A program made the position numbers and the translations under genes. DNA of 27,479 nucleotides. Origin: a virus. Positions 6,459 through 27,479 of the stretch are shown in pieces. The DNA lies in IMG/VR virus record IMGVR_UViG_3300019758_000023, positions 1 through 27,479 of that record. The stretch is one strand, 5' to 3'. Every line of letters begins with the position of its first letter. Within the stretch, counting starts at the first letter, position 1. Under the pieces are notes generated by a model that was not told the DNA's origin, made no database searches, and saw only the letters and a program-made list of their open reading frames with translations.

Positions 6459-6464
6459 TTCACA

Positions 6465-6538: not shown

Positions 6539-6542
6539 TCAC

Positions 6543-6616: not shown

Positions 6617-6617
6617 A

Positions 6618-6691: not shown

Positions 6692-6716
6692 ACCACACTA
6701 CTCAGGGTGGTCAACT

Positions 6717-6770: not shown

Positions 6771-6829
6771 CTTGACTTCGAGCTGTGATAAACTCTACAC
6801 AATGTTACACGCACAGTAGAGGGCGTCCT

Positions 6830-7165: not shown

Positions 7166-7168
7166 GAC

Positions 7169-9695: not shown

Positions 9696-10197
9696 CCCGA
9701 TCAAAGAACCCAAGCCTGCCCCGGAGCGCAGCCTAAACCTAAATATTAAGCAGGCAGTTTCCATGGTAGCTTCTGCGATGAGGGAAGGCATGCTAGACCC
9801 TGACGATGTGTTGATGCTGGAACAGGGAGGTATTCACCGGACGCAAGTAAAGCAGAGCGTATATGAGACCTATGAGGATCTGCTGGCGACTGCGCAGGAA
9901 ACCCTAGCTGAGGTTAGATCCAACAAGGTCATGATCCGCGAGTCTCCCGCCGAGTTCAGCCGGATAGTTGGACTCGTAGTGAAGCTGATGGATTCAGTAA
10001 GAAAGTCTCAGTCAGAGGCTCGCAGGGTAGAGGAGTTGACGGCACTGGAATCTGCCCTGCATGGGTGCATATCTGACATCCAGGATGAGGTGTCGGGCAA
10101 CAAGGACCTTGAGGTCCTTGTCGATTCTGCAGTTAAGACTATGATGCGTAACTTGGAAGACAACCTCAAGAACATACAGGCCAAGTACGAGGATTAG
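9682..10197 (+). CDS. Hypothetical helical protein
   Basis: A 171-residue protein starting at GTG 9682 behind AAAGGAGAG, inside the end of the DHFR gene. It is predicted nearly all helical: MREGMLDPDDVLMLEQGG, then a coiled-coil-like segment from about 60 to 165 (YEDLLATAQETLAEVRSNK ... SAVKTMMRNLEDNLKNIQ). No signal or membrane segment and no recognised family. Small terminase subunits are often helical oligomers of this length and would be expected near the large subunit, which is less than 3 kb away on the other strand. No helix-turn-helix is obvious, so that idea is weak. Confidence 0.65.
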   Translation: MTGLNPIKEPKPAPERSLNLNIKQAVSMVASAMREGMLDPDDVLMLEQGGIHRTQVKQSVYETYEDLLATAQETLAEVRSNKVMIRESPAEFSRIVGLVVKLMDSVRKSQSEARRVEELTALESALHGCISDIQDEVSGNKDLEVLVDSAVKTMMRNLEDNLKNIQAKYED

Positions 10198-10198
10198 G

Positions 10199-10228
10199 TT
10201 GCGATAGGGTCGGTCTATAAGGTAGTAT
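10199..10228 (+). promoter_or_regulatory. Probable sigma70 promoter for the HU-like gene
   Basis: -35 TTGCGA (10199-10204), 18-base spacer, -10 TAGTAT (10223-10228), the same -10 as the strong promoter at 4698. It would start transcription near 10235, about 27 bases before the HU-like ATG. Confidence 0.5.
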
Positions 10229-10261
10229 CGGCCACATAGATACAACCTATCGGAGTGAATT

Positions 10262-10549
10262 ATGAACACTAAAGAGCTTATTAAGGTAGTGCACGAAGAA
10301 ACTGGGCTGACTTATCGCGAAAGCGAGCGAGCTGTCAGGTCTGTAATTGGTCAAGTTAAAGAGGCGGTTGCAGGTGGGGACGAGGTCAACCTGAAGGGTT
10401 TACTGAATATTAAACGTGTCCACCGTAATGCCAGAGTATATAAGTCCGGAATGACAGGCAGCACAGTGACTAAACCAGCGCACACTCGGCCAGTTATTAG
10501 TCTTTCGGGCCCGCTGGTGAAAGAAGCCACGCGCGATATTAACGGTTGA
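10262..10549 (+). CDS. HU/IHF-family DNA-bending protein
   Basis: A 95-residue protein with the HU/IHF fold signature: N-terminal helices NTKELIKVVHEETGLTYRES and VRSVIGQVKEAVAGGD, then the beta start EVNLKGLLNIKRVHRNARV and a long basic arm (YKSGMTGSTVTKPAHTRP) in place of the usual GRNP arm, ending SGPLVKEATRD. Family members are dimers that bend DNA and help replication, recombination or packaging. GGAGTGA lies seven bases before the ATG. It has its own probable promoter and ends at a strong bidirectional terminator. The arm lacks the canonical RNPQTG, so DNA binding could be specialised. Confidence 0.88.
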   Translation: MNTKELIKVVHEETGLTYRESERAVRSVIGQVKEAVAGGDEVNLKGLLNIKRVHRNARVYKSGMTGSTVTKPAHTRPVISLSGPLVKEATRDING

Positions 10550-10574
10550 CTTGCAGCTGACCTTCTGCGGCGAT

Positions 10575-10598
10575 AAAAGGCCTCCTAGGAGGCCTTTT
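10575..10598. terminator. Bidirectional rho-independent terminator
   Basis: AAAAGGCCTCC (10575-10585) is the mirror complement of GGAGGCCTTTT (10588-10598), a perfect palindrome with T-runs on both strands. It separates the converging HU-like gene and terminase gene, and serves both. Confidence 0.92.
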
Positions 10599-10599
10599 T

Positions 10600-12480: not shown

Positions 12481-12501
12481 CTCTGCCCCTACTGCGGTAA
12501 C

Positions 12502-12531
12502 TGGTAAAATATTCTAATCTGGTGGTATCAT
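12502..12531 (+). promoter_or_regulatory. Possible promoter for the portal and head operon
   Basis: A -10-like TATCAT (12526-12531) with a weak -35-like TGGTAA (12502-12507) at spacing 18. It overlaps the leftward promoter on the other strand, so the two would compete for polymerase. The weak -35 suggests help from a phage factor or read-through. Confidence 0.35.
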
Positions 12532-12540
12532 AGCGCACAA
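12511..12540 (-). promoter_or_regulatory. Possible promoter for the terminase gene
   Basis: Minus strand: -35-like TTGTGC (12540-12535), 18-base spacer, -10 TAGAAT (12516-12511, five of six). It lies 31 bases upstream of the terminase ATG. Confidence 0.45.
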
Positions 12541-12567
12541 CCAACCATTCTACACCGGCAGACATTT

Positions 12568-14016
12568 ATGGCACAGTCACCAAAGATCAAGCCCATAGTA
12601 AGACCCAAAAAGACACCAAATAAGGCGCAGTCTCAGGTAGTAGGTCAGAACGTGGACGCCGGTTCAGAAATCACGAACCCGGACAGAAGTTACACCTTCT
12701 ACACCGGCAGAGACCTGCTTTCTCTGATCAACAGCGGGGCTGCCACCGACGCTGTAAGGCGGATGGTTAGAACTTCCGACTCTACCGTATCCTCAGACGT
12801 TAGCACGAAAGCCACTCTGGCCAACTCAGGCTATGAGGTGACAGCTTACAACTCCCAGACCATGGAGTTTGACGCCGAGGCGACGATTGCGGCGACCAAC
12901 GTACTTAAATCTCTTGGGAGGGTGTACGACTACACGAAAGGCTTCGTAGCCAAGCCGTCTATCAGCGAGGTCCTCCACAGGATGCTAGTTGATACGCAGA
13001 TAACCGGCGCTCCGGCGGCTGAACTGGTTATGGACAAGGATAGGCTGCCCTCTCACATCAACACCATAGCCTACGACTACCTGAAGAAGATTGCCAAGAA
13101 AGACGGCGGATGGTTCCCAAGACAGGCCATTCCGCGTCAGGATGAGGTTGACCTAGACTACCCTAACATCTTCCTAAGTGAGATGCTGAAGGACTCAGGG
13201 TCAGTTTACGCGATCAGCCCAATTATACCAGCCCTACCAGACGTCTTTGACCTTAGGGTGTTTAAAGACGATATGCAGAGAGCGGTGAGCAGGGCGGGTC
13301 ATGGAAGGTTAGTGGTTACCGTCGACTACGAGTCGGTGTTCAATAATATGCCGGACGAAGTAAAGTCTGCGGATAAAGAGGTCATTTATGCTGAGATGGA
13401 GAAGGCAAGGGCACAGCTTCAGGGCATTGTCGATGAGCTAGAACCACAGGACGCTCTAGTTTCCTGGGATTCTGCGACGGTCGATGTTAAGGACGGCTCA
13501 GGTTCCAGAGCAGATTACAAACCTCTGCTTGAGACTAAACTGAGTCAACTTGCATCAGCTCTGAAATCCAATTCATCAGCGCTAGGCCTGCGCATCGAAG
13601 GCTCCCAGTCTCTTTCCAATACTGAGTCACTGATCTACCTGAAGCAGTGTGCCGGCATACAGAAACCGGTGGCAGACGTGATGACCCGCATGCTTACATT
13701 CGCCTGCCGCATCCTCGGCATGGACGTCACCGTGGACTTCAAGTTCAAGGATATCAATCTGCGACCAGAGGACGAGCTTGAAGCCTTCAAGACTTCACGG
13801 CATAGCCGATACAGAAAAGACCTATCTGACGGCCTAATATCTGACGCCTATTTTTACCACGTTACCGGACTGCCCCCGCAACCTACGAACCTATCCGGAA
13901 CCGGATTTGATTCTGGAGCAGGCAAAGGAGTCCCTGAAACTACGTCTGGCCCCCAAGAGGACAGGCTACAACCTGACAACGATGTGCCGCGACGCGGCGG
14001 AGGATCGGATCAATGA
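12568..14016 (+). CDS. Portal protein
   Basis: A 482-residue protein that would form the dodecameric ring at one capsid vertex through which DNA enters and leaves. Placement immediately upstream of the S49 protease, and length, fit the family. A basic Pro-rich N-terminus (residues 1-30) precedes a mixed domain; a long helical segment around EVIYAEMEKARAQLQGIVDEL is followed by a C-terminal helical part (KPVADVMTRMLTFACRILGM). The tail is Gly/Ser/Asp-rich and probably disordered. The pattern GRDLLSLINSGAATDAVRRM near 48-67 fits the start of this portal group. There is no clear Shine-Dalgarno site before the ATG. The stop overlaps the protease start by four bases (ATGA). Confidence 0.8.
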   Translation: MAQSPKIKPIVRPKKTPNKAQSQVVGQNVDAGSEITNPDRSYTFYTGRDLLSLINSGAATDAVRRMVRTSDSTVSSDVSTKATLANSGYEVTAYNSQTMEFDAEATIAATNVLKSLGRVYDYTKGFVAKPSISEVLHRMLVDTQITGAPAAELVMDKDRLPSHINTIAYDYLKKIAKKDGGWFPRQAIPRQDEVDLDYPNIFLSEMLKDSGSVYAISPIIPALPDVFDLRVFKDDMQRAVSRAGHGRLVVTVDYESVFNNMPDEVKSADKEVIYAEMEKARAQLQGIVDELEPQDALVSWDSATVDVKDGSGSRADYKPLLETKLSQLASALKSNSSALGLRIEGSQSLSNTESLIYLKQCAGIQKPVADVMTRMLTFACRILGMDVTVDFKFKDINLRPEDELEAFKTSRHSRYRKDLSDGLISDAYFYHVTGLPPQPTNLSGTGFDSGAGKGVPETTSGPQEDRLQPDNDVPRRGGGSDQ

Positions 14017-14903
14017 GTGAATTCTCTATCTGGCTTGGCTCCCATAATGTAGCCCTGGATACAGCCGCAAGGATTACGCTAGGACATGAGAGGTACGTCC
14101 CGGAAGCCGCCAAGTATAAGGACAAAAAGGGGCCGATGGCCACTGCCAGCTTCTCGTCAGAAAATGGCCTATACGGCTACATGGCGCAGAGGCAGGGCAG
14201 GCAAGGAAGAACGGCCATGATCTCCATCCAGGGCGGCATGGTGCAACGGGCCGAGTGGTGGCACGAGTATGTAGGGCTGCCCAGCTATGAGGCCATCAAT
14301 CAGGCCCTAGCGGCAGCGTCCGCTGACGAGTCTGTGGATAGCATTCTGCTGAATCTCGATTCCCCTGGAGGCATGGTGTCTGGGATCGACTCAGTTACTG
14401 ATACTATGGCTAGGATAGATAAGCCGATAATCGGATACACGGACGGTGTAATGGCATCAGCCGCTTACTGGATAGGATCTAACACTGATATGTTAGTCAG
14501 CTCTCGCCTAGCTACAGTGGGTTCTGTGGGGGCTATTGTCATCCGGCAGGACATCACTCAGATGCTTGAGAAGGCCGGCATCAAGATGGAAATCTACAGA
14601 GCCGGTGACAACAAGGCCAGGATGAACCCGTTCGAGGATATGAGAGAAGAAGACAAGGAACACCTGCAAAGTAGTCTGGACGAAAGCTACTCAGCCTTCC
14701 TGGATCAAGTCGCTATAGGTAGGAAAGGTAAAGTAAGCCGACAGGGACTTGAGGAGCTGACGGAGTACGGTAGGACGTTCTCGGGTAAGACGGCATACGC
14801 TAAAAATCTGGTTGATTACAACGCCTCGCTTATTGAAGTCCTTGAACAAATGGACGAAACAATCAATAATAACGATCAAAACCCCATGTCGTCCATAGGT
14901 TAG
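14013..14903 (+). CDS. Head maturation protease, S49 (SppA/lambda gpC) family
   Basis: A 296-residue protease that cleaves scaffold and head proteins inside the procapsid. The ClpP-like fold is seen in MISIQGGMV (69-77), SILLNLDSPGGMVSG (110-124), the nucleophile Ser149 in GVMASAAYW, and VGSVGAIVIRQD (169-180). The likely general base is Lys201 in GDNKARMNPF; the Ser-Lys spacing of 52 suits the lambda gpC group. The start overlaps the portal stop (ATGA). Lambda gpC carries the scaffold at its own C-terminus, whereas here the chain ends soon after the catalytic domain and a separate scaffold-like gene follows. Confidence 0.9.
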   Translation: MSEFSIWLGSHNVALDTAARITLGHERYVPEAAKYKDKKGPMATASFSSENGLYGYMAQRQGRQGRTAMISIQGGMVQRAEWWHEYVGLPSYEAINQALAAASADESVDSILLNLDSPGGMVSGIDSVTDTMARIDKPIIGYTDGVMASAAYWIGSNTDMLVSSRLATVGSVGAIVIRQDITQMLEKAGIKMEIYRAGDNKARMNPFEDMREEDKEHLQSSLDESYSAFLDQVAIGRKGKVSRQGLEELTEYGRTFSGKTAYAKNLVDYNASLIEVLEQMDETINNNDQNPMSSIG

Positions 14904-14943
14904 AGCTATGGAAGACAGGAAGTAGCTGACAAAGGTACTTACT

Positions 14944-15588
14944 ATGTTACGCAAACGTCACGGCCGAGTGGTCTGCTTGGCTCCTGCTTCTGAGCACGGT
15001 TCTGTTGATGGACTGGCTCAGGCCATGCAGGAAAATCTGAACATCTCGCCTGCAGAGTTAGAGGCAGCAGCCAGTCTTGAAGAAGATGGCGCCGAAGAGG
15101 AAGGACCTGAGCCTGTACAGACTCCGGACGAGCCAGAGGAATCTCCTGCAGATCTGGACGCATCCGCAGGTCAAGATCTGCAGGCCAAGCTGGACGCGGC
15201 TCTGGAAGAGAATAAAGCCCTGACAGCACAAGTGTCTCTGCTGGAAAGACTTAACAGCACCCTGAACTCTGATAAGTCAGGCATGCAGGCCAAGCTAGAT
15301 GTGCAGGCATCAGAACTTGAAAGCGCTGCTCAAGCCTGTGAAGCCCTAAAGCCGGGGGCGGTGCGGGCGGTTAAAGTCCTGTCACGAGTCCTCGGAGAGC
15401 CGGTAGCGGATGACCTCTCAAGCAAGTCAGCAGCCGAGATCGGCTCTATCTGCGCGTCCCTGATCTCGAAGAACGAGAAAGTGATGCCTAACCGCCAAGT
15501 TTCAAATGAAATGCCTACAGGCACCGGTGCCGAGCCGGAACAAGTAGTTGTACCAACCGCCAGCGAAAGCGGCTTGTCCAACTTCTAA
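14944..15588 (+). CDS. Probable capsid scaffolding protein
   Basis: A 214-residue acidic protein lying between the head protease and the decoration and capsid genes, where scaffolds belong. After a basic start (MLRKRHGRVVC) comes an Asp/Glu/Pro-rich disordered stretch (about 45-75), then a clear coiled coil (LQAKLDAALEENKALTAQV, 80-98, through about 130) and a polar tail. This is the usual scaffold design, with no enzyme motif. The ribosome site AAAGG is modest. It would be removed by the S49 protease during maturation. The assignment rests on position and composition. Confidence 0.7.
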   Translation: MLRKRHGRVVCLAPASEHGSVDGLAQAMQENLNISPAELEAAASLEEDGAEEEGPEPVQTPDEPEESPADLDASAGQDLQAKLDAALEENKALTAQVSLLERLNSTLNSDKSGMQAKLDVQASELESAAQACEALKPGAVRAVKVLSRVLGEPVADDLSSKSAAEIGSICASLISKNEKVMPNRQVSNEMPTGTGAEPEQVVVPTASESGLSNF

Positions 15589-15608
15589 ACTACACCAGGA
15601 GAGAGATA

Positions 15609-16028
15609 ATGGGTCCATTATTCGACGAAAACATCTCCAACTCTACCTACCCGGCAGACACGGTCTACTTGACTGGTGTAGCAGGTAGTGCAGATGTTGG
15701 CAAACCTGTAATTCTGGCAGGCGCAACTACGTTCGCTCTGGCCGAAGACGGCGACGACTTTGAAGGATTTATCTACGCAGTTGATCCTGTCTTCGCTGAC
15801 GGCACTGTCACAGGCTCGATTCAGCGACAGCCTCTGCTGCGTAAGCGTGTTATTAATGCAGGCGCTACTCAGCTGGCTATTGGTGACACCGTGGTGGCGG
15901 CAGCTCAGGTAACCGCAGGTACTAAGGGTAAGCCACAGGTTAAGGCAGGCGCGGGCAGCTGGCGAGTTATTGAGCTGCTTAATGGGACAGGTCTGCAGAC
16001 CGAAGAACTGGTTATTGAGAAGGTGTGA
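15609..16028 (+). CDS. Head decoration protein (lambda gpD-like), putative
   Basis: A 139-residue beta-rich protein directly before the major capsid gene, the usual place of capsid decoration proteins. The sequence (DTVYLTGVAGSADVGKPVIL, FEGFIYAVDP, RKRVINAGATQLAIGDTVV) suggests a compact beta barrel like gpD or related head-stabilising trimers. AGGAGAG precedes the ATG. The stop overlaps the ribosome site region of the capsid gene, so the two are probably translated together to similar amounts. Confidence 0.65.
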   Translation: MGPLFDENISNSTYPADTVYLTGVAGSADVGKPVILAGATTFALAEDGDDFEGFIYAVDPVFADGTVTGSIQRQPLLRKRVINAGATQLAIGDTVVAAAQVTAGTKGKPQVKAGAGSWRVIELLNGTGLQTEELVIEKV

Positions 16029-16030
16029 GC

Positions 16031-17215
16031 ATGAGCTACGAAGCATTGAAATTTAATTATGAGGCTACTGACGGCACCAAGAAGGAAGCTCAGGTAGGCC
16101 TCCAGGAGTACCAGCAGGCGTCTCGCGCAGGCATGAACCTTAATCAGTTCCTGCAGGCGAAATACCAAGATGCAGACCCGAAGGTCGGCACGGTATTCCA
16201 GCAGTTTGCGGCTGCCATGGGCTACAACTTAAACCCTATGGCCAAGTTCAAAAACACAGCTGCTGAGATTCTGGAAGGAAAAGGAATCATCGCAGGAGCT
16301 GTTACAGCCCCGGACGGCCAGGACCGATCCATCGCAGGTCGCCTGTTGATGCCTGAGATTGTACTGGGCATGCAGGAGCAGTTCCTGCCGCAGGACACTA
16401 TGCCTCTGCGGAATGCCCTGATGAGCAAGGTTGCTATCCGTACCAACGTCAACAGCAAGACGTACTACCGTCCCGTTGTTGATTCCGATACCAACCGTGA
16501 CTTTGAGCAGCGTGTTATCAGCCAGGGTGCGACCCCCGACCTGCTGGTTAAAATCGCGACATCGGAACGTGGCTACACCATCCCGACGACCTCCTTCGGT
16601 GTTGAGATCACGGACGAGGCCATGGCCTCCAGCACTCTTGATCAGATCGGCATGATGCTGCGTTCAGCTCGCCGCAGTATCGACAACAAGTCTGTCTACC
16701 GCTGGATCAGCCGTATCGTAAATGGCGACGCACAGTACGGCATCACCGGCCTAACTCCTGTAAGTCTGTCCAGCTTTGACGGGTCTATCTCGGGTGACGA
16801 AGTGACCCAGACCGCATGGCTGAAGGCGCTTATGGACGGACAAGAGTACTGGGAAGCTGACACCATGTTGGCCACTAAAGACTCTTACCTGGCTATTGAA
16901 AACCGTGGCCAACGTCCGACAGTCAGCGATGACACCGGCCGTGACAACCGCCTGAACGCCGGCATGAACCTGATGAACGTATCTCTGGACACCATCGATA
17001 CCATCTTGGTTAACCAAGATTCAGCACTGGGCGGCGCAGGCAACTTCCTGCTGTTCGATTCGCAGCAGTCTCTTGAGTACGTGCAGAACGTATCAGCGTC
17101 CTACGAAGCAGTAGAGCGTTACGTGATGCGCAAGATGGAGCAGATGCGCTTCGACATGGCAGAGGAAATGTTCCGCTTCCGTGACGACGCCATGATGCTG
17201 GTAACCCGAGCGTAA
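16031..17215 (+). CDS. Major capsid protein, HK97 fold
   Basis: A 394-residue protein, by position (after protease, scaffold and decoration genes) and sequence the main shell protein. ATG 16031 is chosen because GAGAAGGTG lies just upstream; a GTG six bases earlier is less likely. The first 75 residues are helical and polar. The core carries PEIVLGMQEQFLPQDTMPLR, the strand-rich RGYTIPTTSFGVEITDEAM (about 183-201), the long spine helix LDQIGMMLRSARRSIDNK, and the C-terminal VERYVMRKMEQMRFDMAEEM, as in related siphovirus capsids. A GC-rich hairpin follows the stop. Confidence 0.88.
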   Translation: MSYEALKFNYEATDGTKKEAQVGLQEYQQASRAGMNLNQFLQAKYQDADPKVGTVFQQFAAAMGYNLNPMAKFKNTAAEILEGKGIIAGAVTAPDGQDRSIAGRLLMPEIVLGMQEQFLPQDTMPLRNALMSKVAIRTNVNSKTYYRPVVDSDTNRDFEQRVISQGATPDLLVKIATSERGYTIPTTSFGVEITDEAMASSTLDQIGMMLRSARRSIDNKSVYRWISRIVNGDAQYGITGLTPVSLSSFDGSISGDEVTQTAWLKALMDGQEYWEADTMLATKDSYLAIENRGQRPTVSDDTGRDNRLNAGMNLMNVSLDTIDTILVNQDSALGGAGNFLLFDSQQSLEYVQNVSASYEAVERYVMRKMEQMRFDMAEEMFRFRDDAMMLVTRA

Positions 17216-17223
17216 GGCTGATC

Positions 17224-17243
17224 TGCCCGGGTTCGCCCGGGCA
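17224..17243 (+). terminator. GC-rich hairpin after the capsid gene
   Basis: TGCCCGGG and CCCGGGCA form a perfect 8-bp stem with a TTCG loop, nine bases after the capsid stop. There is no T-run, so it may be a partial terminator or an mRNA 3' stabiliser that raises capsid yield relative to downstream genes. Confidence 0.5.
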
Positions 17244-17271
17244 ATCCATCGACTAAACAGGAAACAATACC

Positions 17272-17508
17272 ATGGCTAAGATTGATACAGGCAAGATCGC
17301 TGTGTACAAAGGTAAATACCCTCTGAACGTAGCAACTAAGGACGGCAAACCGTTCACCAAGGAACCAGGTGAAGAACTGACTGCTGCGGAAGTAGCAGCT
17401 ATCCCTGATAAAACCTTCCGCAGTATGCAAATTGCTGGGGACGTGCTGGTAGCCGACAAGCCTAAGGCGTCAGCAAAACCGGCAGGTCAAAAGGAAGACG
17501 ATAAGTAA
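17272..17508 (+). CDS. Hypothetical small head-region protein
   Basis: A 78-residue protein with a good AGGAAAC site before the ATG. The sequence has a small beta start (GKIAVYKGKYPLNVAT), a helix (TAAEVAAIPDKTFRSM), and a Lys/Ala/Pro-rich, probably disordered tail (KPKASAKPAGQKEDDK). It lies between the capsid and first connector genes, so a head-completion or minor capsid role is possible. The TAA overlaps the next ATG (TAATG). No family is recognised. Confidence 0.65.
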   Translation: MAKIDTGKIAVYKGKYPLNVATKDGKPFTKEPGEELTAAEVAAIPDKTFRSMQIAGDVLVADKPKASAKPAGQKEDDK

Positions 17509-17957
17509 TGGCCTTCCTGGGCAGTATCTGCACAGCGGAAGACGTGAGGCAGGTTTTTGGCTTAGAGGACGACGAGCTGACGGATTCAACGATCCTCTCT
17601 CGCGCTACTCGGGTTGATATAGCTGTTAAGCAAGAAATTCCCGACTACCAGACGATAATCGACAACCAAGCCTCAGATGCTGAGCCTTATGAGAAACTTG
17701 TCGACTACGTCATATACACGTCCGCAGATAAGGTACTGCCCGCCCTCATCCTTACCCTTGAGAAGAGTACCAAGGATGACTCAGGGGCTGAAGGGTCAAG
17801 GTACGATGACCTGAAGGCCAATCTTGAAGGCCTGAGGCAAGATATATCTGCCTATCTGGGGCAGCTAAGGGCTGACCTAACAAACACCTCCACTTCTGCC
17901 ACCCTTACCATCATGGGCAGAAGCATTCCTGCCGTGGACGTAGTTACTGGCGGGTAA
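17508..17957 (+). CDS. Head-tail connector (adaptor) protein, putative
   Basis: A 149-residue protein with the look of the gp6/gp15-type adaptors that bind below the portal: an N-terminal TAEDVRQVFGLEDDELTDST helix pair (8-27), then further helices (YEKLVDYVIYTSADKVLPAL). Such proteins form a 12-mer ring in the neck. Position after the capsid gene is standard. Assignment is by position and predicted helical layout rather than exact motif. Confidence 0.6.
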   Translation: MAFLGSICTAEDVRQVFGLEDDELTDSTILSRATRVDIAVKQEIPDYQTIIDNQASDAEPYEKLVDYVIYTSADKVLPALILTLEKSTKDDSGAEGSRYDDLKANLEGLRQDISAYLGQLRADLTNTSTSATLTIMGRSIPAVDVVTGG

Positions 17958-17977
17958 ACTTAACCGCAGGGCGCGCC

Positions 17978-18931
17978 ATGAGCAAACGTCTTAAGAGAAT
18001 CCAAAGAAAGTACCGAGACTCTGTGATGGAGCAGCTTGACCCAGGCGGCGCTTGGTCAGCATGGCTGCCCGTATCCGCTGAACCAGCCACCTCCCGCAAA
18101 AATAAATTTCACCTATTCGACGTAGACCGATTTTTGTCGATCTATAATCGACCAGTACGCAGGCGCCAAATATCTCATGAGCCGGGCGCAATCTTCCCAA
18201 GTACGGGCGTGGTAAGAAATCCTGCAGACGGTGCCGTCTATATTTTAGGCGCAGACAGAACTGACACTGATGGCTCGCTGACGATAGAGACTCTGACGAC
18301 CCTTCACGAAGTAGGGCAAACAGGCACTGTAACCCGTCGACAGCTGTCGGCTACCGCTACGCCAGAAGATCCCGGATGGCTTGATCAGGTGCAGGTTGGC
18401 GAGTTCTATTTCGATTCCGAGCTGAGAACCGTTACCGAGGAATCCGAGCAGGCTGGAGAGTTCGTAGGCAAGTATTTCACCTTCACCAACTGCTCAGATC
18501 TCCAGCCCAACGACGTCCTGACTATTGGGCAAGACTCTTACATTGTAGAGGCCCCGTACAAGGACGCAGGCTTCAACTCTGCCCGAGTGGCCAAACTTAA
18601 GGACTGCAGGCAGGATGTTGTCATTAACAAGCAGCAGTCGACAGCCGGGGTAACCTCTTCAAAGTACGATCCGCACAACCCGACCGCCAGCTCGACATCT
18701 ACTGATCCTGAGCCATTCAACGTCACGGCTTGGATAGGTTCTTCAATGTCAGAGCCAGCAACCGCCATGACGGCCGCCGATGAGCTGCGAGTTTTTATCG
18801 ATAAGACGGCTATAGGGTTCCGGCCTACTGCGTCACACTCCGTCGTCGTAGATGGCGTAGAATGGAGCGTGGAGGACGTTAAATACAGCCACCAGTTCGA
18901 GCAGTACAGGCTAGACTGTAGGAGGGTGTGA
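17978..18931 (+). CDS. Neck or head-closure protein, putative
   Basis: A 317-residue protein, starting basic (MSKRLKRIQRKYRDSV) and becoming beta-rich. The last 60 residues (ELRVFIDKTAIGFRPTASHS and onward to EQYRLDCRRV) look like the small beta-barrel stopper proteins that close the portal channel. The first 250 residues are extra and unrecognised, so this may be a fused stopper plus another neck domain. Location between adaptor and tail-completion genes fits. The ribosome site CAGGG is weak. The stop overlaps the next ATG (TGATG). Confidence 0.5.
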   Translation: MSKRLKRIQRKYRDSVMEQLDPGGAWSAWLPVSAEPATSRKNKFHLFDVDRFLSIYNRPVRRRQISHEPGAIFPSTGVVRNPADGAVYILGADRTDTDGSLTIETLTTLHEVGQTGTVTRRQLSATATPEDPGWLDQVQVGEFYFDSELRTVTEESEQAGEFVGKYFTFTNCSDLQPNDVLTIGQDSYIVEAPYKDAGFNSARVAKLKDCRQDVVINKQQSTAGVTSSKYDPHNPTASSTSTDPEPFNVTAWIGSSMSEPATAMTAADELRVFIDKTAIGFRPTASHSVVVDGVEWSVEDVKYSHQFEQYRLDCRRV

Positions 18932-19404
18932 TGGGTAGGAACAAGGCAGTATCCGCAGCAATTATCAAAAAGCTCAGAGCACTGCCAGGTAGAGTGCATG
19001 CGGCAGGCCTTGAGGCGGCTATCTTCTTCCTGCCTGCTAATTCATATCAAGACTCAGGCAGAGCTGCGTTTAACTGGCAGACTGAGTCTGGAAGAAATTC
19101 AGCCAGAGTGTACTTGGAAGACAGAGGCAGACCTCCTGTTGGTAACAGAGGTGATCGTAGGACGGGTACCGGAAAGTCACTCGATGCGGTGTCAAGGTTT
19201 AGAGTGAAAGAAGCTATGCAGCTACTTCGGTCGATAAGAGAAGGGTCAGTCAGCACGTCGACTATCTCCAATCCGATTCCCAAGGTCAACGAGTTCTACG
19301 AAGATAACGCCAAGCTAAAAGAAGCCCTTGAGGGTTCTAAGATCAGGATAGAGTCGGCTATGAAAGCGGAAGTAGATCACTGGCATAAAGAGAACGGAAG
19401 ATGA
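18931..19404 (+). CDS. Tail completion / neck protein (HK97 gp10-like), putative
   Basis: A 157-residue protein; ATG 18931 is chosen over an upstream GTG because AGGAGGGTG is correctly placed. The start (VSAAIIKKLRALPGRVHAAG) and following FFLPANSYQDSGRAAFNWQ, RPPVGNRG fit the small alpha/beta proteins that join head and tail in HK97-like phages. It is basic and ends in helices. The stop overlaps the next ATG (ATGA). Confidence 0.55.
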   Translation: MGRNKAVSAAIIKKLRALPGRVHAAGLEAAIFFLPANSYQDSGRAAFNWQTESGRNSARVYLEDRGRPPVGNRGDRRTGTGKSLDAVSRFRVKEAMQLLRSIREGSVSTSTISNPIPKVNEFYEDNAKLKEALEGSKIRIESAMKAEVDHWHKENGR

Positions 19405-19826
19405 CCAGAATTGAGACAGGCGAGATGATGGTGCAGAAGTTCAGGTACGACGAACTGAACCCTGTATTTGAGGGAGACCCAGTAGAGTTCCTGTTATCTG
19501 GCTCTCCGGGTGCGTCCAATGAAGACTTAGATCTTCCCTTTATAGAAATGGAGTGGACGCCAGGCGATGGTAGGTCTATCGGGACTTCACTGCAGACTTT
19601 CCAGTACCAAGGGTCAGTCAGTTTCTTGGTGTTCATGCCTAAGGGACTACCCCCTCACAAGGCCAAGTCCGTGGTGGGGCAGCTTGAGCAGTCCCTTACT
19701 CATGCCTACAAAGACTACCCTGAAGGAACCGTCACCTTTGGTAAGGCCAGGATCAGACCGATAAGACCTGTAGGGACGTCAGAGATGACTGAAGTTACAG
19801 TGGAAACGAATCTCCTGCTAAGGTAG
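19401..19826 (+). CDS. Tail terminator protein (gpU-like), putative
   Basis: A 141-residue alpha/beta protein, with PFIEMEWTPGDGRSIG, then FQYQGSVSFLVFMPKG (57-75) and a helix AKSVVGQLEQSLTHAY, ending in strands (SEMTEVTVETNLLLR). This alternation matches tail terminators, which cap the tail tube and dock it to the neck. Position fits. A major tail protein would normally follow, but the next gene looks like a tail chaperone instead. Confidence 0.55.
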   Translation: MTRIETGEMMVQKFRYDELNPVFEGDPVEFLLSGSPGASNEDLDLPFIEMEWTPGDGRSIGTSLQTFQYQGSVSFLVFMPKGLPPHKAKSVVGQLEQSLTHAYKDYPEGTVTFGKARIRPIRPVGTSEMTEVTVETNLLLR

Positions 19827-19861
19827 GATCAGCGCTAAAGACACAAATACAAGAGGACAGC

Positions 19862-20251
19862 ATGAAATTATCTGCGATCACCAACAAACACCCTGACGGC
19901 CAGTGGTTCGAGTACGCTGGAGTGCTAAAGGTTAAGTTGAAGTTTGGCCAAGGCATAGAGACTAAACTTAACTCTGCTATGGTAGAGTTAACTGTAAAAG
20001 CAGGACAGTCAATTGAAGGCAGTGATTTAGAGCCAATTAAGCAGGCAGAGCAGGAATTCCGGCAGGAAGCCGTCAGACTGATCTGCGAGGACTACTTCCT
20101 TGATTTTGAATCAGTAGATGGAAGTCTCGAAGACGACGAAGGAAACGCGGTGGAAAACACTCTTGCCAACCGAATGATGCTGCTGTCAAAGGTCGAAGAC
20201 CTACACGACTTTGTCGACGTAAGGATCAGCACCTACTCGTTCTGGACGTAA
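19862..20251 (+). CDS. Tail assembly chaperone-like protein, putative
   Basis: A 129-residue acidic protein with AGAGGA before the ATG. Helices (SDLEPIKQAEQEFRQEAVRLI), an acidic turn (GSLEDDEGNAVENT), and position directly before the tape measure gene suggest a gpG-like chaperone that coats the tape measure during tail assembly. Many relatives are made in two lengths by ribosomal frameshift; I see no slippery heptamer and no extending frame before the tape measure start. Confidence 0.5.
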   Translation: MKLSAITNKHPDGQWFEYAGVLKVKLKFGQGIETKLNSAMVELTVKAGQSIEGSDLEPIKQAEQEFRQEAVRLICEDYFLDFESVDGSLEDDEGNAVENTLANRMMLLSKVEDLHDFVDVRISTYSFWT

Positions 20252-20284
20252 CCTTCCCGTTAATATCCTGACGCTTTAATGCTA

Positions 20285-20316
20285 AACTCCCGGTATCTGT
20301 TATCGGGAGTTTTCTT
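20285..20316 (+). promoter_or_regulatory. Hairpin enclosing the tape measure ribosome binding site
   Basis: AACTCCCG (20285-20292) pairs with CGGGAGTT (20304-20311) over an 11-base loop and is followed by TTTCTT. The GGAG at 20306-20309, seven bases before the tape measure ATG, lies in the 3' arm. The element can therefore act as an intrinsic terminator and hide the ribosome site. Either would limit tape measure synthesis. Confidence 0.65.
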
Positions 20317-23300
20317 ATGTCTGAAGAGTACAAAATTGGGTTTAGTACGGAAGAGTCAGAGGCCAGACTCAGCTCGCTGATCGGCAAGCTAAACTCACTC
20401 GCCTATGCTGCGGACAAAGTTGACAGGAGAAGCGTCAACCCGGTAACCGGCGGGTCCATAAGAAATGTTGATGAGATGAGGAGAAGCCTGGACGGCATGT
20501 TCTCTCGCCAGCTATCCCAGGCCCAGAGGCTATTTGCCGAGCACCTGGAGAGAATCAATCACGAGTCGTCAGCCACTAGTAACGCAGTGGACCGGCTAAC
20601 CGCATCAATATCCAGGAACAGGAGGGTTACTAGGTCAGCCGCTAGGGACCGAAGCATGGTTTCTTCCCTCCATTCAAGCGCCCAAGCGACTGCAGCATGG
20701 CGAGCAGGCCTTAACGCTGCAGGCACCTCCATGGGTATATTCACCAGCCAGACTATTGCCGTGGCCTCGGCTACTTACGCCGCTGTATCAGCTTTCAGGG
20801 CCTCAATCACCGCAGGCATCGAGTTCACTGACCTGATGGCGAGAGTCCAGGCGGTAACAGGCGCGTCCGCGGAAACCCTTGACTGGATGAAGCAGGAGGT
20901 TAGGAGCTTTGCAGGAGAGACCATCTTTACTGCTGCGGAAGCAGCTGACGCTCTCTTGCAGCTGGGCATGGCTGGCCTATCAGCCGAGGAGTCGGTAGCG
21001 GCTATGCCTGCGACTCTCAGGCTGGCATCCATCGGCCTGATGTCCACTGGAGAGGCTGCTGACTTAGCCACCAACGTCATGACCCAGTTTGGCCTTGAGG
21101 CTAAGCACTTGGCAGCAGTTGTTGATGACCTGGCTACCGTAGCTAACAACTCCAACACGTCAGTGTCTCAGCTAGGGCTGGCCCTTTCTTACACCGGCCC
21201 TGCAGCTGCCTCTGCCAACGTTCACATCACAGAGACAGTAGCGGCTATCGGTTCGCTTGCCTCTGCAGGCATTAAAGGTTCCCGCGCAGGTACGGCTATG
21301 CGCCGTGTAATATCAATGTTGGTCGCTCCGACCGAAAAAGCCCAGAAAGTGCTAGCCAAGCTGGGGGTGTCAACCAAGGACTTGGAGGGTAATGCAAGGC
21401 CGCTAGGCGACGTGTTGGAGGATCTTTCGGCTGCTGGCGTAGATTACGCTGACGCCGTTGATCTGGTTACCCTGAGACAGTCTCAAGGCCTGCTCGCGCT
21501 GACCAGCAACACAGAAAAGTACCGAGAGCTTGAAGAGCAGCAGCACAAAAATACGGGCGCTGCTGAAAAGTTCCAGAAAACCATCGAGGACACACTAGGG
21601 GCGGATTTTAAGCTTCTGGTTTCTGCTGCCTATGAGCAGATGCTGAAGTTCTTTGACGCCAATGAAGACGGTTTCCGGTCGATGGTCCAGGAAGCCACTG
21701 AATTCGTTAAGTCCCTAGACGTCGATAAGATCAATGCCTTCCTTCATAACCTGAAAGACGGAGCCATCACGGCAGCCAAGGCACTTGCCGGACTATGGGT
21801 CACCAGTAAAGTATTCGGCCTCGTCAGCGCTGTGGCAGCTCTAAGCAGCAATCTGCAGCACTTGGGCGGGGTGTCAGGGGCTACCAGGAAGGGGCTTTCA
21901 GCCTTAATGAGAGTGGCTGCAAGGCTGCACCCAGCTCTACTGGCCCTTACCGTGGCAGGCGGAGGCCTAGCCTACGCTATGTACCAGACACAGCGTAGAA
22001 CAGCAGCAGCAGCCAGCGAGCTTGAAAGGGTAACCAGCCTAGCCGACAAGTATAGACGGACAACCGAGCAGCTGACTAAGGCTCAGAAGGAAAGCCGATA
22101 CGAAGCCCTCAAGCAGCGGGAAAACGAGATTCAAAGTCAGCTGAACGTTTCGTTCGAGGAAGATGCGACGCTTAACCAGCTACGTCCAGGCTATCAGAAT
22201 CTGGTAGACGCTGGGCACGGAGACTCTGAGCCCGCCAGAGCTATTAAGGCGCTTATTGATAGGCGCCTAGTGCAAATAGCCGAGATGAAGGCAAAATCCG
22301 CAGAACTAAGCTCTGAGCTCCAGGAAGTTCAGAGGGAGCTGAACGAAGTAGGGGAAGCTATAGGCATCCCCGCCAAAGCCCTGAAGGACCATGGGAACCA
22401 GTATGACCTGCTGACTGAAAAAATTTCTAAGTTTGTGGATAAGGAGACTACGGCCTCAGAAAAGGTGGCCCTCTACAAGAAAGCCTTAGACGCTGCGAAT
22501 GCGAGTGTGAAGGACTACAGCAAAGAGCTGACCGCCGCTAATGACCAAGTTAATAGGGAACACCAGCTCAAAGAGAAGAGCATTCGCGTTGAACTGGAGA
22601 TGCACAACCGTAGACTTCAAAACCTTCAGGCCTATGCGGCCAAGGAAAAGGAAGCACTTGCGCAAAGAAGAGCCAACTTCAACCGCTTCGCAGGGATGTC
22701 AAAGGCTGCCTACGTAGGAGAAGGAGGCAGTCTAACTCAAGCCAGGGAGGCTGTAATCTCTGCCGAGCTAGACCGACTGTTCAAGTCTGAGCAGGGACTG
22801 AGCGCCGCAGGGGGTGAGGACTACATCCTCGATCTGTACGAAGAGCGTACTAAGCTGGAGGAGGAGTACGCGAAGCTGCAAGAAGAGCTGAGCAAGAAGT
22901 CAGCTGATCTGAGAAAGGACGAGCTGACTTTAGCAGCTGAGCTGACTTCTACTGAACTGAAGCTGTCAGATACTAGGATTCAAGCCATAGCCTCGTACTC
23001 TAAAGGTTTAGTATCGTCGAGGGTCCTGCTGGAGAGGGTAACCGAGGCGAATGACAAGTATGTGAAGTCGGTCAAGAAAGCCAATGAAACCTTCAAGCCC
23101 GGCTCGACTGCTCACTCAGAAGCGCTGGAACAAGCCAAGAAGGAGTTTGATGACGACCTCTACTCGGCAGCCGGAACTGCCGGAGAGAGATTCGCCGCTA
23201 ACTTGCTGGACAACCTGTCTGGAATAGGTCAAAGCGTAGCTGACGCTGTGGCATCAGGGGATTACTCCGGATTAAGGGACGCTCTACAGGCCGCACTATC

Positions 23301-25872
23301 CGGTGCTATAGGTAAGAGCATAGGCGACGCCGTCACTCAGTCCCTAGGCGACAACCTAGGCGGACTGATGGGCAACGTGGCCGGAGACTCGGTCAAGGGC
23401 ATGTTCGGCAAGGCTGCGGGGGGCATACTCGGCGGAGTGGCCGGAGGTGCTGTCGCCGGCATCGTGACGGGGTTAATGAAAGGCAGTAAAACCGAAATCA
23501 CGGGCAAGGGTTACAGGATAGGTATAGAGGCCGGTAAGATATTCTCCGCCGAGCTTAGTACGTCCTTCAAAAAGTCTTCAATGTTCGGCAGTAGGAGATG
23601 GACCGAATATCAGAACATGAGGCTAGCTGAGTCAGACAACCTGGCTAGCTCAGTAGCAGAATTGAACGAACAGTTCACACAGGGCGCTAGCAGCATGGGG
23701 CATGCTGTTAACCTATGGACGGGTCAGTTAAAGAATAAAAATGCGGACATCAGCGCAGCCCTGACAGAACTCTCTGAGGAGACCGCCAAAGCTCAAATGG
23801 CAGCGCTGGAGAAGTTCCAGCAGGTCGGGGAGACAGCGGCAGAGACCTACCTGGACATGGTCGACAGGTACCAAACCATTCAGGAGGGGTTCCGAGTATC
23901 TGGTATGGATTTGGGCGCCGCCTCTCAGGGCTACATCGCCACAGAGTCCAGCAGGCTGGCAGACGAGTATGAGAAGCAGTACCAGGACTATTTGCGTACA
24001 GAGAAGCTAATCACTTCCCATATAGCGTCCAGGGTGACAACTGGAGATAAGTTCAACGAAGCTGCAGTTGAGATGTACATGGGTATGCTGGAAACCATGA
24101 CACCTGACGAGCTGATAAACAGCCTAGAGCCCGGCAAGGCAAGGTTCATAGATGGAGACAATTTAGCGTCTTGGCTAGCCTACAATGACGCTAAGAAAAG
24201 ACTTAAGAATGAAGTGTACCCTGTAGCGGAGGACGCTGCGGAAATCCTGAAACGCATGGGGGACGTCTACAAAGAGGCTACCGAGAACTTTAACCAAGAG
24301 TTGATAGGCGCCATTGCTGACGTGGAAAACCTGACCACCGACGAGGCTGAGGATAGGTTCGGGCAGCTGGCAGCCTCTTTTGCAGAGAACTACCTATCTG
24401 CACAAGAAAGGCTAGAGAACACGAGGAAGCTGACAGAGTTCAGACTGGCTCAGCTGGACGTAGGGATAGGTATGGACTCCTCCGTTGAGGATGTCAGGGC
24501 GGTTATAGACTCACTTAAAAGCAGCCCAGCTGACCTCGGCAAGGCTTACCTGGCCGCTGAGTATCTTAAGGTGTACACAGATGCCGTAGAAGATTCAGCC
24601 AACGCCGTAAGGGAGCTCGACACAGGACCGTGGGACAACCTGACGAAAGTAGTTAACAGAGAGATGGAGGCTTTAAACCTCCTTAAAGACGCCGCTGAGT
24701 CCTCTCTATCAGGTATCAGGGTGGCTATTGATGCAGAGATGGAACTTAATGCCTCGCGGCAGGAAGCTGTAAAGGAACAGGTCAAGCTGTCCGAGGAGGC
24801 AGTTAACCGTCTTAAATCCCTGTACGACAAACTGGACTCAGCCCTGTACGGGATGTCTAATCTGTCGGAGGCTCAGAAGTACAGCCAAGCTCAGCAGGAG
24901 CTTGCAGATGCCCTGAACTTGGCAAGGACCACAGGTGAGCTTCCGCTTGACGGAGAAATAGACCGGGCACTGTCAGTGGTGCAGGGGGTGGATTCCTCTG
25001 CCTTCAGTTCTGCGGCTCAGATGGCTTTTGAGCAGGCCAAGACGGCCAACCAGATACAGAGTCTGAGAGACATAACAGGAGATCAGCTCAGCTACGAAGA
25101 GTCAGCCCTGCAGGCAGCTAACGCTCAGCTAGAGGCCCTTGAGGCCCAATCGGACAGGCTCGACGACGTCTACAGTACAGCCGAACGTCAATTACGTGCA
25201 GCGCTAGGCACTGATCAGGGTGTGCTTAGCCTAGGGGACGCGCTCGATAAATTTGCGGACGACTTACTCGCCCTAGACGAAGCGGATTACGCTGAAAAGA
25301 TGGGGTATTATGAGGACTCGTTGGAGTACTACCGCAAGATACTGGAAACTCTGCAGTCTGGGTACACGGCAGATACAGTAGCTGGAGCAGTATCCGATGT
25401 AGAGGCAGCTGCACAAGCGGCGGTGTCTGATGAGGATATTATCTGGAGAGTCAACGAGATAATAGGCAGGTTCGGAGGGGTTACTGACGAAGCCGCCATG
25501 GAGATGTACAATACCGCCAAGGCGTTCGGAGTTTCCCTCGAAAGACTCAGACCTTTTCTGCCTGAGCAAGACCAGCTGAACATGGAAGGATGGTTATCGG
25601 GCCACAGTCTGCCTAAGTTTGCAGCTGGAGGGTTGCACTCAGGAGGGTTTAGGCTAGTAGGGGAGAACGGGCCAGAAGTTGAGGCAGTGGGTCCGGCTAG
25701 GTACTACTCAGCTGGGCAGACTAGACAGCTTCTGTCAGGCGGAGCTGATAACGGGCGTATCGCTGAAATGGCTGACGCTCTAAAATCAGTTGATTCCAAT
25801 ACAGAGCAGCTGAGAAGAGATATTCGACAGTGGTCCGTGCTCGGGTTACCCCCGACGAGGCAGACAGTCTAA
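20317..25872 (+). CDS. Tail tape measure protein (TP901 type)
   Basis: An 1851-residue protein that fixes tail length and exits during DNA ejection. The TP901-like core spans about residues 165-350 (FTDLMARVQAVTGASAETLD, AADALLQLGMAGLSAEES, then VAAIGSLASAGIKGSRAGTA). Hydrophobic stretches occur near 145-170, 485-510, 545-560 and in the Gly/Ala-rich AAGGILGGVAGGAVAGIVTG near 1035. Long coiled coils lie between about 580 and 980 and again from 1400 to 1700. The C-terminus (LPKFAAGGLHSGGFRLVGEN) is a common tape measure ending. From the usual 0.15 nm per residue this suggests a tail of roughly 250-280 nm. The start is set by GGAG seven bases upstream, within a hairpin. Confidence 0.95.
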   Translation: MSEEYKIGFSTEESEARLSSLIGKLNSLAYAADKVDRRSVNPVTGGSIRNVDEMRRSLDGMFSRQLSQAQRLFAEHLERINHESSATSNAVDRLTASISRNRRVTRSAARDRSMVSSLHSSAQATAAWRAGLNAAGTSMGIFTSQTIAVASATYAAVSAFRASITAGIEFTDLMARVQAVTGASAETLDWMKQEVRSFAGETIFTAAEAADALLQLGMAGLSAEESVAAMPATLRLASIGLMSTGEAADLATNVMTQFGLEAKHLAAVVDDLATVANNSNTSVSQLGLALSYTGPAAASANVHITETVAAIGSLASAGIKGSRAGTAMRRVISMLVAPTEKAQKVLAKLGVSTKDLEGNARPLGDVLEDLSAAGVDYADAVDLVTLRQSQGLLALTSNTEKYRELEEQQHKNTGAAEKFQKTIEDTLGADFKLLVSAAYEQMLKFFDANEDGFRSMVQEATEFVKSLDVDKINAFLHNLKDGAITAAKALAGLWVTSKVFGLVSAVAALSSNLQHLGGVSGATRKGLSALMRVAARLHPALLALTVAGGGLAYAMYQTQRRTAAAASELERVTSLADKYRRTTEQLTKAQKESRYEALKQRENEIQSQLNVSFEEDATLNQLRPGYQNLVDAGHGDSEPARAIKALIDRRLVQIAEMKAKSAELSSELQEVQRELNEVGEAIGIPAKALKDHGNQYDLLTEKISKFVDKETTASEKVALYKKALDAANASVKDYSKELTAANDQVNREHQLKEKSIRVELEMHNRRLQNLQAYAAKEKEALAQRRANFNRFAGMSKAAYVGEGGSLTQAREAVISAELDRLFKSEQGLSAAGGEDYILDLYEERTKLEEEYAKLQEELSKKSADLRKDELTLAAELTSTELKLSDTRIQAIASYSKGLVSSRVLLERVTEANDKYVKSVKKANETFKPGSTAHSEALEQAKKEFDDDLYSAAGTAGERFAANLLDNLSGIGQSVADAVASGDYSGLRDALQAALSGAIGKSIGDAVTQSLGDNLGGLMGNVAGDSVKGMFGKAAGGILGGVAGGAVAGIVTGLMKGSKTEITGKGYRIGIEAGKIFSAELSTSFKKSSMFGSRRWTEYQNMRLAESDNLASSVAELNEQFTQGASSMGHAVNLWTGQLKNKNADISAALTELSEETAKAQMAALEKFQQVGETAAETYLDMVDRYQTIQEGFRVSGMDLGAASQGYIATESSRLADEYEKQYQDYLRTEKLITSHIASRVTTGDKFNEAAVEMYMGMLETMTPDELINSLEPGKARFIDGDNLASWLAYNDAKKRLKNEVYPVAEDAAEILKRMGDVYKEATENFNQELIGAIADVENLTTDEAEDRFGQLAASFAENYLSAQERLENTRKLTEFRLAQLDVGIGMDSSVEDVRAVIDSLKSSPADLGKAYLAAEYLKVYTDAVEDSANAVRELDTGPWDNLTKVVNREMEALNLLKDAAESSLSGIRVAIDAEMELNASRQEAVKEQVKLSEEAVNRLKSLYDKLDSALYGMSNLSEAQKYSQAQQELADALNLARTTGELPLDGEIDRALSVVQGVDSSAFSSAAQMAFEQAKTANQIQSLRDITGDQLSYEESALQAANAQLEALEAQSDRLDDVYSTAERQLRAALGTDQGVLSLGDALDKFADDLLALDEADYAEKMGYYEDSLEYYRKILETLQSGYTADTVAGAVSDVEAAAQAAVSDEDIIWRVNEIIGRFGGVTDEAAMEMYNTAKAFGVSLERLRPFLPEQDQLNMEGWLSGHSLPKFAAGGLHSGGFRLVGENGPEVEAVGPARYYSAGQTRQLLSGGADNGRIAEMADALKSVDSNTEQLRRDIRQWSVLGLPPTRQTV

Positions 25873-25881
25873 GGTAAACGT

Positions 25882-26799
25882 ATGAGCCAGATGAGTATGT
25901 CCATACCACAAATGATAGACGATAGTACATTGTTGTCGTCTAATGCTGTGGATGAGGCAATAGACCAGTGGGTAGCCGGCACTTACGTCACGGGTACGCA
26001 GAAAATATACGAGCAACAGGTATGGAAAGTAGCTGCGGACCCGAGCACGGATGACAGACCCGACATAGGTGCGGAGAAAGAAATACCTACATGGACTAGG
26101 ATGGGGTGGGTCAACACTTACCGCATGTTTAGGGATGGAGTAGATTCCAAGACCACAGCAACCGGGAATCTTGAGGTGAGCCTGTCACAGACGGGCAACA
26201 ACACCTTAGTTGTGCTGCTAGGGGCTGAAGGGTTTGAGGCTGTTTTGGAACTTCTTGACGAAGTGGGACAGCCCATACCCGAGTACACTGAAACTAAGCC
26301 CCTAATAGACTACTTAGTCGACAACACCGAGGACTGGTGCTTCAAAGACCCAGTGCTCTATGAGGAAGTGGTCTTTGAGTTACCAATAGGATTCAGCACC
26401 AACGACGTAAGGGTCACTATAGTGGCAGGTAGCCCAACCGACCCAACAGCATGTGGAAGGCTGCTGTTGGCGGAGGAAAGGACGCTAGGGATAACCAATT
26501 ACGGCACGGAGGTGTCGGCACTGAGCGGGTCTGAGATCACCAGAGATGGGTTCAACAATCTAATACTCGATAAGAAACGAACAGTAAAGCTGGTAGACTA
26601 CAAAGTGACCGTGGAGACGCTTTTAGTATCTACGGTTAGGTCTGCACTGGCGGCTGCCGATGCCACGGAAGCCCTGTTCATCGGCAGCTCCATACCCGGG
26701 TATGGAGCTACTATCGTATTTGGCATCTACCGCGACTTTAGAACTGTGTACGAAAATAAATCGATATCTGACATGACACTGACTGTGGAGGGTCTGTAA
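25882..26799 (+). CDS. Minor tail / tail tip protein, putative
   Basis: A 305-residue protein right after the tape measure. The N-terminal 120 residues carry a motif typical of tail tip components: TYVTGTQKIYEQQVWKVA, then DDRPDIGAEKEIPTWTRMGW, NTYRMFRDGVDSKT. The rest alternates strands (TLVVLLGAEGFEAVLELLDE, VVFELPIGFSTNDVRVTIVA) and looks like a beta-sandwich. It could be part of the distal tail ring or a fibre anchor. AAGG precedes the ATG. The stop overlaps the next gene's ATG (TAATG). Confidence 0.6.
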   Translation: MSQMSMSIPQMIDDSTLLSSNAVDEAIDQWVAGTYVTGTQKIYEQQVWKVAADPSTDDRPDIGAEKEIPTWTRMGWVNTYRMFRDGVDSKTTATGNLEVSLSQTGNNTLVVLLGAEGFEAVLELLDEVGQPIPEYTETKPLIDYLVDNTEDWCFKDPVLYEEVVFELPIGFSTNDVRVTIVAGSPTDPTACGRLLLAEERTLGITNYGTEVSALSGSEITRDGFNNLILDKKRTVKLVDYKVTVETLLVSTVRSALAAADATEALFIGSSIPGYGATIVFGIYRDFRTVYENKSISDMTLTVEGL

Positions 26800-27479
26800 T
26801 GGCCTCAGTACTGCCGGACAAACCTACACTTACCCCTATAACATTCGACCTGCCTCAAAAGGGCCAGGTTAAGTCTGTATTTACGCCCAACTTTAACAAC
26901 TTCATCTCTTGGACACCCAACTTCCAGCAGAACCTGCAAGACGCTATAGATTGGATGGAGACTGTGTCGGATTACGTGGAGGCATGGTCGGCCACAGTAG
27001 AGCAGACGGCTGTCGAGGTGGCGCAGAATGCAGCGCTTGCCGAGGAGTACAGAGACAGCGCGGTGGAAGCGAAAAACCTGGCCGAGGCGGCGGTGGCATC
27101 CCTCCCAGAGGGAACTATCGACGACTTGATTACGTCTGAAACTACGACGTGGTCTAGTTATGAGATTAATAAAAGACTGGCCACTGCTGGAGGGGTGCAG
27201 GAGTTTACTGCAAGCGGTTCGATACCTGACGGAAGGACAGTCAGATTGAATGGAGATGGGACGGTGAGCGTGATTAGCGGGGTACCCACTGAGGCTGGGA
27301 CTTCTGTTGTTTTTAATAGCGCTAGCACCTTTTACATCTCAGCTACATTTGACTCTATCTCAAATAAAGTTGTCATTGCTTATACGGATAATGGCAACTC
27401 TAATTACGGTACAGCAGTGGTTGGTACAGTATCAGGGACAAGTATCACATTCGGCACTCCTGTTGTTTTTGAGAGTGCT
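26799..27479 (+). CDS. Tail fibre protein, 3' end cut off by the window
   Basis: The frame runs open to the window end: 227 codons are seen. GGAGGG lies before the ATG, which overlaps the previous stop. Residues 1-50 form a Pro-rich tail-attachment part (LPDKPTLTPITFDLPQKGQV). Residues about 50-115 form a coiled coil (WMETVSDYVEAWSATVEQTA). After SSYEINKRLA a beta region begins, ending in NKVVIAYTDNGNSNYGTAVV and GTVSGTSITFGTPVVFES, a repeat unit I recall from multi-bladed beta repeats in phage fibres. From about 27290 the DNA is more A/T-rich than the gene's first half, suggesting a transferred tip domain. Confidence 0.75.
   Translation, partial: MASVLPDKPTLTPITFDLPQKGQVKSVFTPNFNNFISWTPNFQQNLQDAIDWMETVSDYVEAWSATVEQTAVEVAQNAALAEEYRDSAVEAKNLAEAAVASLPEGTIDDLITSETTTWSSYEINKRLATAGGVQEFTASGSIPDGRTVRLNGDGTVSVISGVPTEAGTSVVFNSASTFYISATFDSISNKVVIAYTDNGNSNYGTAVVGTVSGTSITFGTPVVFESA

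Follow-up and report, generated by a model that had tools for sequence, protein, structure and literature searches.

Directly after the gene for the lambda gpV-type tail tube protein (PHROG 158; structures 2k4q, 7t2e and 8k36) come G, a −1 slip site and T. According to PMC5009743, the T part attaches to the tube protein in lambda, and G to the tape measure. Non-canonical positions of the major tail gene have been reported for Microbacterium cluster EG and Rhodococcus cluster CB phages (PMC7302621, PMC13313380) where, by description, the tube gene is within the structural region, upstream of connector or portal-capsid genes. The block dealt with here has the lambda-type tube fold, and G, a −1 slip site and T follow the tube gene in the same way. 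However, it is on the strand opposite to the structural genes, away from terminator and tape measure, and beside nucleotide-metabolism and SbcC-like genes. The passages on clusters EG and CB in the two papers do not describe an opposite-strand tube-G-GT block, and no description of one, let alone of one accompanied by an operon chaperone lacking T, was found in the literature covered (weak evidence of absence, as subscription journals were barely included). Unusual tube positions are known in actinobacteriophages; an opposite-strand tube-G-GT block, with the tail operon keeping a chaperone that lacks T, seems to be new.

Three sets of phages are the closest points of comparison. Pseudomonas phage PMBT3 (Maxrubnervirus) and Vibrio phage K404 share with the present phage the portal, protease, capsid and neck proteins, the N-terminal part of the tape measure and the position of a G-like chaperone, but a gene for a 319-350-aa tube (phrog_290) occupies the slot before that chaperone and a T frame follows G. 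Salicola phage CGphi29 shares a phrog_158-type tube (33% identical), a relative of the T part, the C-terminal region of the tape measure and a relative of the 305-aa protein encoded after the tape measure. Its tube, G and T, however, are in canonical order on one strand, with the tube between terminator and tape measure. The third set comprises Acinetobacter phages Effie, MD-2021a and HHU4 and contigs L032 and L033, whose tubes are 57-59% identical to the displaced one. In Effie, MD-2021a, L032 and L033 the tube-G-T block stands apart from the tail operon and has an AAATTTT slip site. Between terminator and tape measure, Effie, MD-2021a and L033 have a short gene that leaves no room for T. (The Effie block, at 4029-5399, precedes terminase, and a 108-aa gene is all that the slot contains; HHU4 shares these tube, terminator-like and slot genes.) These differ from the present case in that the block comes ahead of terminase and shares its strand with the structural genes, and the tape measure is unrelated.

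The window, which is the whole 27,479-base viral record that was analyzed, carries at 12568-20251 genes for portal, protease, scaffold-like, decoration-like, capsid and connector proteins, a terminator-like protein and a 129-aa protein. Beyond are the tape measure gene (20317-25872, +; 1851 aa, PHROGs tape measure match 8.6e-73), a 305-aa gene in the tail tip region (25882-26799, +; phrog_6278, 6e-42) and, cut off by the end of the window, the first part of a fibre gene that contains 156-base tandem repeats (26799-27479, +). The C-terminal part of the 317-aa neck protein (17978-18931, +) resembles head closure protein Hc1 (phrog_161, E 0.0049, residues 225-305), and the 158-aa product of 18928-19404 (+), which has a K404 relative (E 5.9e-11), is in the tail-completion (gpZ-like) position. 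The 141-aa product of 19401-19826 (+) matches terminator family phrog_179 weakly (E 0.0011), though its position equals that of terminators in relatives, and it forms the upstream border of the slot. Only 35 bases (19827-19861, +) separate it from the 129-aa gene (19862-20251, +), and it is here that 24 of the 26 relatives with a visible slot have a major tail protein gene. The original prediction had the sizes and coordinates of these four genes and of the gap right, from the terminator-like gene to the 305-aa gene. Its main claim, that a recognizable tube gene is missing before the tape measure, is borne out: none of the slot genes has a tube-family match in PHROGs or Pfam, and the same is true of every product of 17978-20251 and 25882-26799. 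Alignments of neck or terminator sequences did not find relatives among solved structures, and 12500-20300, compared as DNA with the phage collection, gave no match.

That the slot is normally filled is evident from a survey of relatives with the same head and neck. A three-row capsid alignment led to 30 viral contigs which, with PMBT3 and K404, make 32 loci; 24 of these have a slot tube gene, two have an empty slot and six do not reach the slot. (One contig, L095, has the same length as PMBT3 and is a copy of it, so 23 of the 24 tube-bearing loci are distinct records.) The 24 products, of 303-354 aa, are from genes between terminator and tape measure and form one family. Though PHROGs labels the family 'minor tail protein' (phrog_290), by sequence profile it is a tube, since the profile matches a solved 'Major tail structural protein' (8xan, 5.2e-11); tail tube protein gp93 is a weaker match (0.056). 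The two empty-slot loci are L071, a sibling contig of the window, and L072, whose capsid is 82% identical. Absence of the tube from the slot exceeds chance. T is affected as well. A −1-frame extension after G is open for 356-374 nt in all 21 relatives tested, but the −1 frame after the 129-aa stop is open for just 17 nt in the window and 20 nt in L072. With both the slot tube and the T extension of its relatives absent, this phage has lost the tube gene and the T part and kept a G-like gene. By a strict pattern, a canonical slip heptamer is at the end of G in only four of the 21, and other relatives with a T frame may use slip sites outside that pattern.

The remaining slot gene, that for the 129-aa protein, has the place of the tail assembly chaperone of relatives, and alignment of the protein with the chaperones found there is collinear. 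Both hhalign comparisons with such chaperones are weak (K404, P 8e-4; PMBT3, P 0.013), there is no direct match in PHROGs (the tail assembly chaperones of phrog_313 included), and tblastn found no relative in the phage collection. No slip site for a shift into a T frame is present. The predicted model is helical with an N-terminal beta hairpin (pLDDT 85.5). Foldseek found no match to it at E ≤ 0.001 and no relative among solved structures, and its best VIA Z, 5.8, is to unrelated chains. Position, weak profile similarity and the helical model point, weakly as far as sequence goes, to a retained G-like chaperone devoid of T.

Terminator, head-closure and tube proteins have related folds, and names alone could conceal a tube-like domain. 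It was suggested that the tube might be hidden in the neck or tail tip gene, or that one of the labels was wrong, in which case the phrog_158 protein described below would be an accessory or decoy. This is very improbable for each of the three operon products concerned. Relatives of the 317-aa neck protein (full-length in PMBT3, N-terminal in Vibrio phages) occur in phages whose slot also holds a distinct tube gene, as is seen at 24 loci. Structure prediction within 17978-20251 covered the 129-aa gene, and no tube fold was seen, so that the supposition of a wrong label is mostly not supported. The 305-aa protein has no relative among solved structures (the only matches, to nuclear receptors and deacetylases at E 0.15 and above, are taken as chance). 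Its relatives, however, follow tape measures, and the best of them, the product of the gene after the CGphi29 tape measure (35% identical), coexists with a separate phrog_158-type tube; the 305-aa gene was rejected as a tube gene. A further argument against a concealed tube is that the sibling contig has one clear tube protein adjoined by intact G and GT.

That contig, IMGVR_UViG_3300019935_000002 (L009; 78,394 bases), was reached via the 129-aa gene. To the window it is 99.95% identical over 14-9757 and 100% identical over 8758-27479. Outside the part shared with the window and on the opposite strand, at L009 3543-3995 (−), is a gene whose 150-aa product matches the major tail protein family phrog_158 over residues 1-149 (5.5e-16); the remaining option offered, that the tube is elsewhere, is thus the one that held. 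The match to Pfam Phage_tail_3 (0.0026) is below the Pfam cut-off. The product is 33-59% identical to those of tube or tail genes from 39 phage records, with the best matches in Acinetobacter phages. A profile of 26 tube relatives (A4) matches only this product among the sibling contig ORFs and, among solved structures, finds lambda gpV (2k4q, 9.2e-4). The AlphaFold2 model is moderately confident (pLDDT 75.2, pTM 0.70; residues 49-56 and 60-70 are below 50). Its top Foldseek matches are lambda-type tube chains at E 5.4e-8 to 1.4e-7, with VIA Z of 13.9-15.0 over 143-145 residues. By profile and predicted fold the displaced product is a gpV-type (phrog_158) tube, and it would be the abundant tail subunit of the virion. 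It is not encoded between terminator and tape measure, a location that is usual but not defining for the type. Annotation rules expect the tube there and otherwise score it as 'missing'; here it is intact but encoded elsewhere.

Might the displaced block be a recent addition to a phage that still has an unrecognized resident tube, so that a second tube, or a mixed one, is built? For Gordonia cluster DJ (PMC12859696) and Rhodococcus cluster CB (PMC13313380), phages with two or three related major tail genes have been reported, and these accounts provide precedents. The profile of the resident-type tube (A7), however, found nothing in sibling contig ORFs while recovering all three positive controls (7.7e-119 or better). 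Also absent is the T extension, on which relatives depend to recruit the resident tube. A second tube has a slimmer chance still than one hidden in the operon.

After the displaced tube gene comes a G-like gene for 165 aa (L009 2947-3444, −). The product has no PHROG match and is 36% identical to that of the same-place gene in contig L019 and 22% to that of Effie. Near its end CCCAAAG is in the correct frame for −1 shifting, and a 146-residue extension is predicted. The T frame involved (L009 2528-2857, −), in the −1 frame of G, matches Phage_TAC_18 (PF23812) marginally (4e-6; score 27.3 bits, cut-off 27). L019 likewise has CCCAAAG, with a 154-residue extension, and AAATTTT is at the corresponding site in Effie, MD-2021a, L032, L033 and CGphi29. 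A hairpin between tube and G (L009 3483-3502, −), partly conserved in L019, could lower G expression relative to that of the tube.

The block may also have its own promoter. Upstream of the tube start by 48-59 bases is a 33-base stretch that contains TAGATA-17-TACAAT. This phage and L019 have the same base at 31 of its 33 positions, although the rest of the spacer upstream of the tube has mostly diverged. As the pattern alone is no commoner than expected (2 found, 2.5 expected by chance), the case for a promoter-like element rests on conservation between the two phages. The sibling contig lacks a second strong copy (the best other, 22/33, is in coding sequence; shuffled maxima are 18-20), and a role of the element as a general late promoter is thus not established.

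The fibre frame that exits the window at 27479 is taken up again, still in frame, where the sibling contig begins, and it ends at L009 465. If the sibling contig, which is linear and broken in the fibre repeats, is closed at this junction, about 3.5 kb separate the fibre stop from the tube start beyond it. The block faces the structural genes from the downstream end of the strand of nucleotide and recombination genes, with dATP/dGTP hydrolase-like and SbcC-like genes as neighbors. Contig L019, from the same metagenome set, has the same displaced block (tube 81% identical) with neighbors in the same order: SbcC-like gene, small gene, tube, G, T and two convergent genes related to those of L009. 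L018 repeats the tube side of the layout. L072, with the empty slot, and L019, with the displaced block, are separate contigs that we infer to belong to one phage.

All contigs are metagenomic and break at fibre repeats, and faulty assembly might have dropped a tube gene from the operon or joined an opposite-strand block that does not belong. Nevertheless, the 35-base gap and intact flanking genes are in both window and sibling contig, and the gap of L072 is in diverged sequence. The displaced layout, in turn, recurs in L019 with conserved neighbors, and on the tube side in L018. Of the alternatives weighed, an artefact has the least probability. [The 156-base repeats of the fibre gene amount to 5.3 copies and are found at 27297-27479 of the window and at L012 18576-19394; the window, sibling and L018 contigs all end in them.]

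How common the arrangement is can be gauged from 54 viral-contig tube loci. In 41 a long downstream ORF lies 1.2-2.4 kb from the tube start, and 34 of these ORFs match known tape measures (the other seven are unmatched by a small query set). Terminase is downstream in two (L032 and L033). The convergent displaced layout is in three (L017, L018 and L019), being two contigs of this phage and L019. Eleven loci have no downstream ORF of at least 400 aa, and eight of these are cut short or unclear and were not classed. On the best tube tree there are three changes in displacement; at the level of tube sequences a single origin is neither shown nor excluded. A scan of genome contigs yielded three Delftia loci only, and a search of plasmids three distant matches.

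The tape measure is a mosaic. Its PMBT3-like residues 1-560 match 23 of 27 PMBT3/K404-type loci but only two of 52 loci with canonical phrog_158-type tubes. For residues 921-1851 the corresponding counts are 0/27 and 13/52, several of the 13 matches covering only a C-terminal motif of about 50 residues. Two lineages are thus represented: the tip-side gene and part of the tape measure incline, with the tube, to one of them, and the first third of the tape measure goes with head and neck in inclining to the other. The product of L009 9892-10110 (−; 72 aa), which resembles that of a small gene beside the CGphi29 terminator (5.6e-8), is possibly another piece of a CGphi29-like tail module, far from the tail operon.

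The empty slot, the intact block, the predicted tube fold, the slip site with its T frame and recurrence of the arrangement in a second phage together argue that the tube gene left the tail operon and was replaced by a gpV-type (phrog_158) tube with its own chaperone pair at another locus. This is very probably what happened. The resident tube would have given way to an intact tube-chaperone cassette working from elsewhere, with G, and GT by −1 frameshifting at CCCAAAG, as the displaced pair. The tail operon would retain only the T-less, G-like 129-aa chaperone beside the mosaic tape measure. The 129-aa protein, perhaps with the displaced G as well, would coat the tape measure in the manner of lambda G, and the displaced GT (perhaps together with its own G) would join the tape measure and recruit tube subunits. 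A promoter and locus of its own would let the tube be made in many copies, in excess and irrespective of tail operon expression.

A broader proposal is more tentative, and on present indications rather doubtful: that the tube-G-GT block is a portable cassette for tube exchange, with its own promoter and an adaptor chaperone, that replaces native tubes of unrelated siphophages. Wherever such a block landed, GT would join any compatible tape measure to its own tube, and the recipient would shed its tube and T but keep its G. If this were true, the two unrelated tail operons, of this phage and of the Effie type, would be independent cases. The present phage amounts to a natural swap experiment, with the head, neck and head-proximal tape measure of one family and the tube and part of the tape measure of another. 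It makes testable which contacts must match (GT with tube, G with tape measure, terminator with tube) and whether a tube cassette moves between phages as a unit.

A 12-pair hairpin found by terminator scan (20284-20312, +) ends four bases before the tape measure ATG and has a ribosome-site-like run, GGGAG, in its 3′ arm. A similar one is visible in L072, and control of tape measure translation is a possible function. The 305-aa gene contains a perfect 24-base palindrome at 26686-26709, seen as a self match to the other strand. A 626-aa ORF at 10600-12480 (−) was considered as a misplaced structural gene and rejected: it is the terminase large subunit, on the strand opposite to that of portal. 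Among the 32 related loci terminase is on the + strand in 24 and on the − strand in five (L071, L073, L074, L075 and L096), and in three it was not found. Elsewhere in the window are genes for thymidylate synthase (3699-4655) and dihydrofolate reductase with a DUF1289 tail (9006-9695), and a cluster of four predicted tRNA genes (5890-6691), one of which has an odd anticodon.
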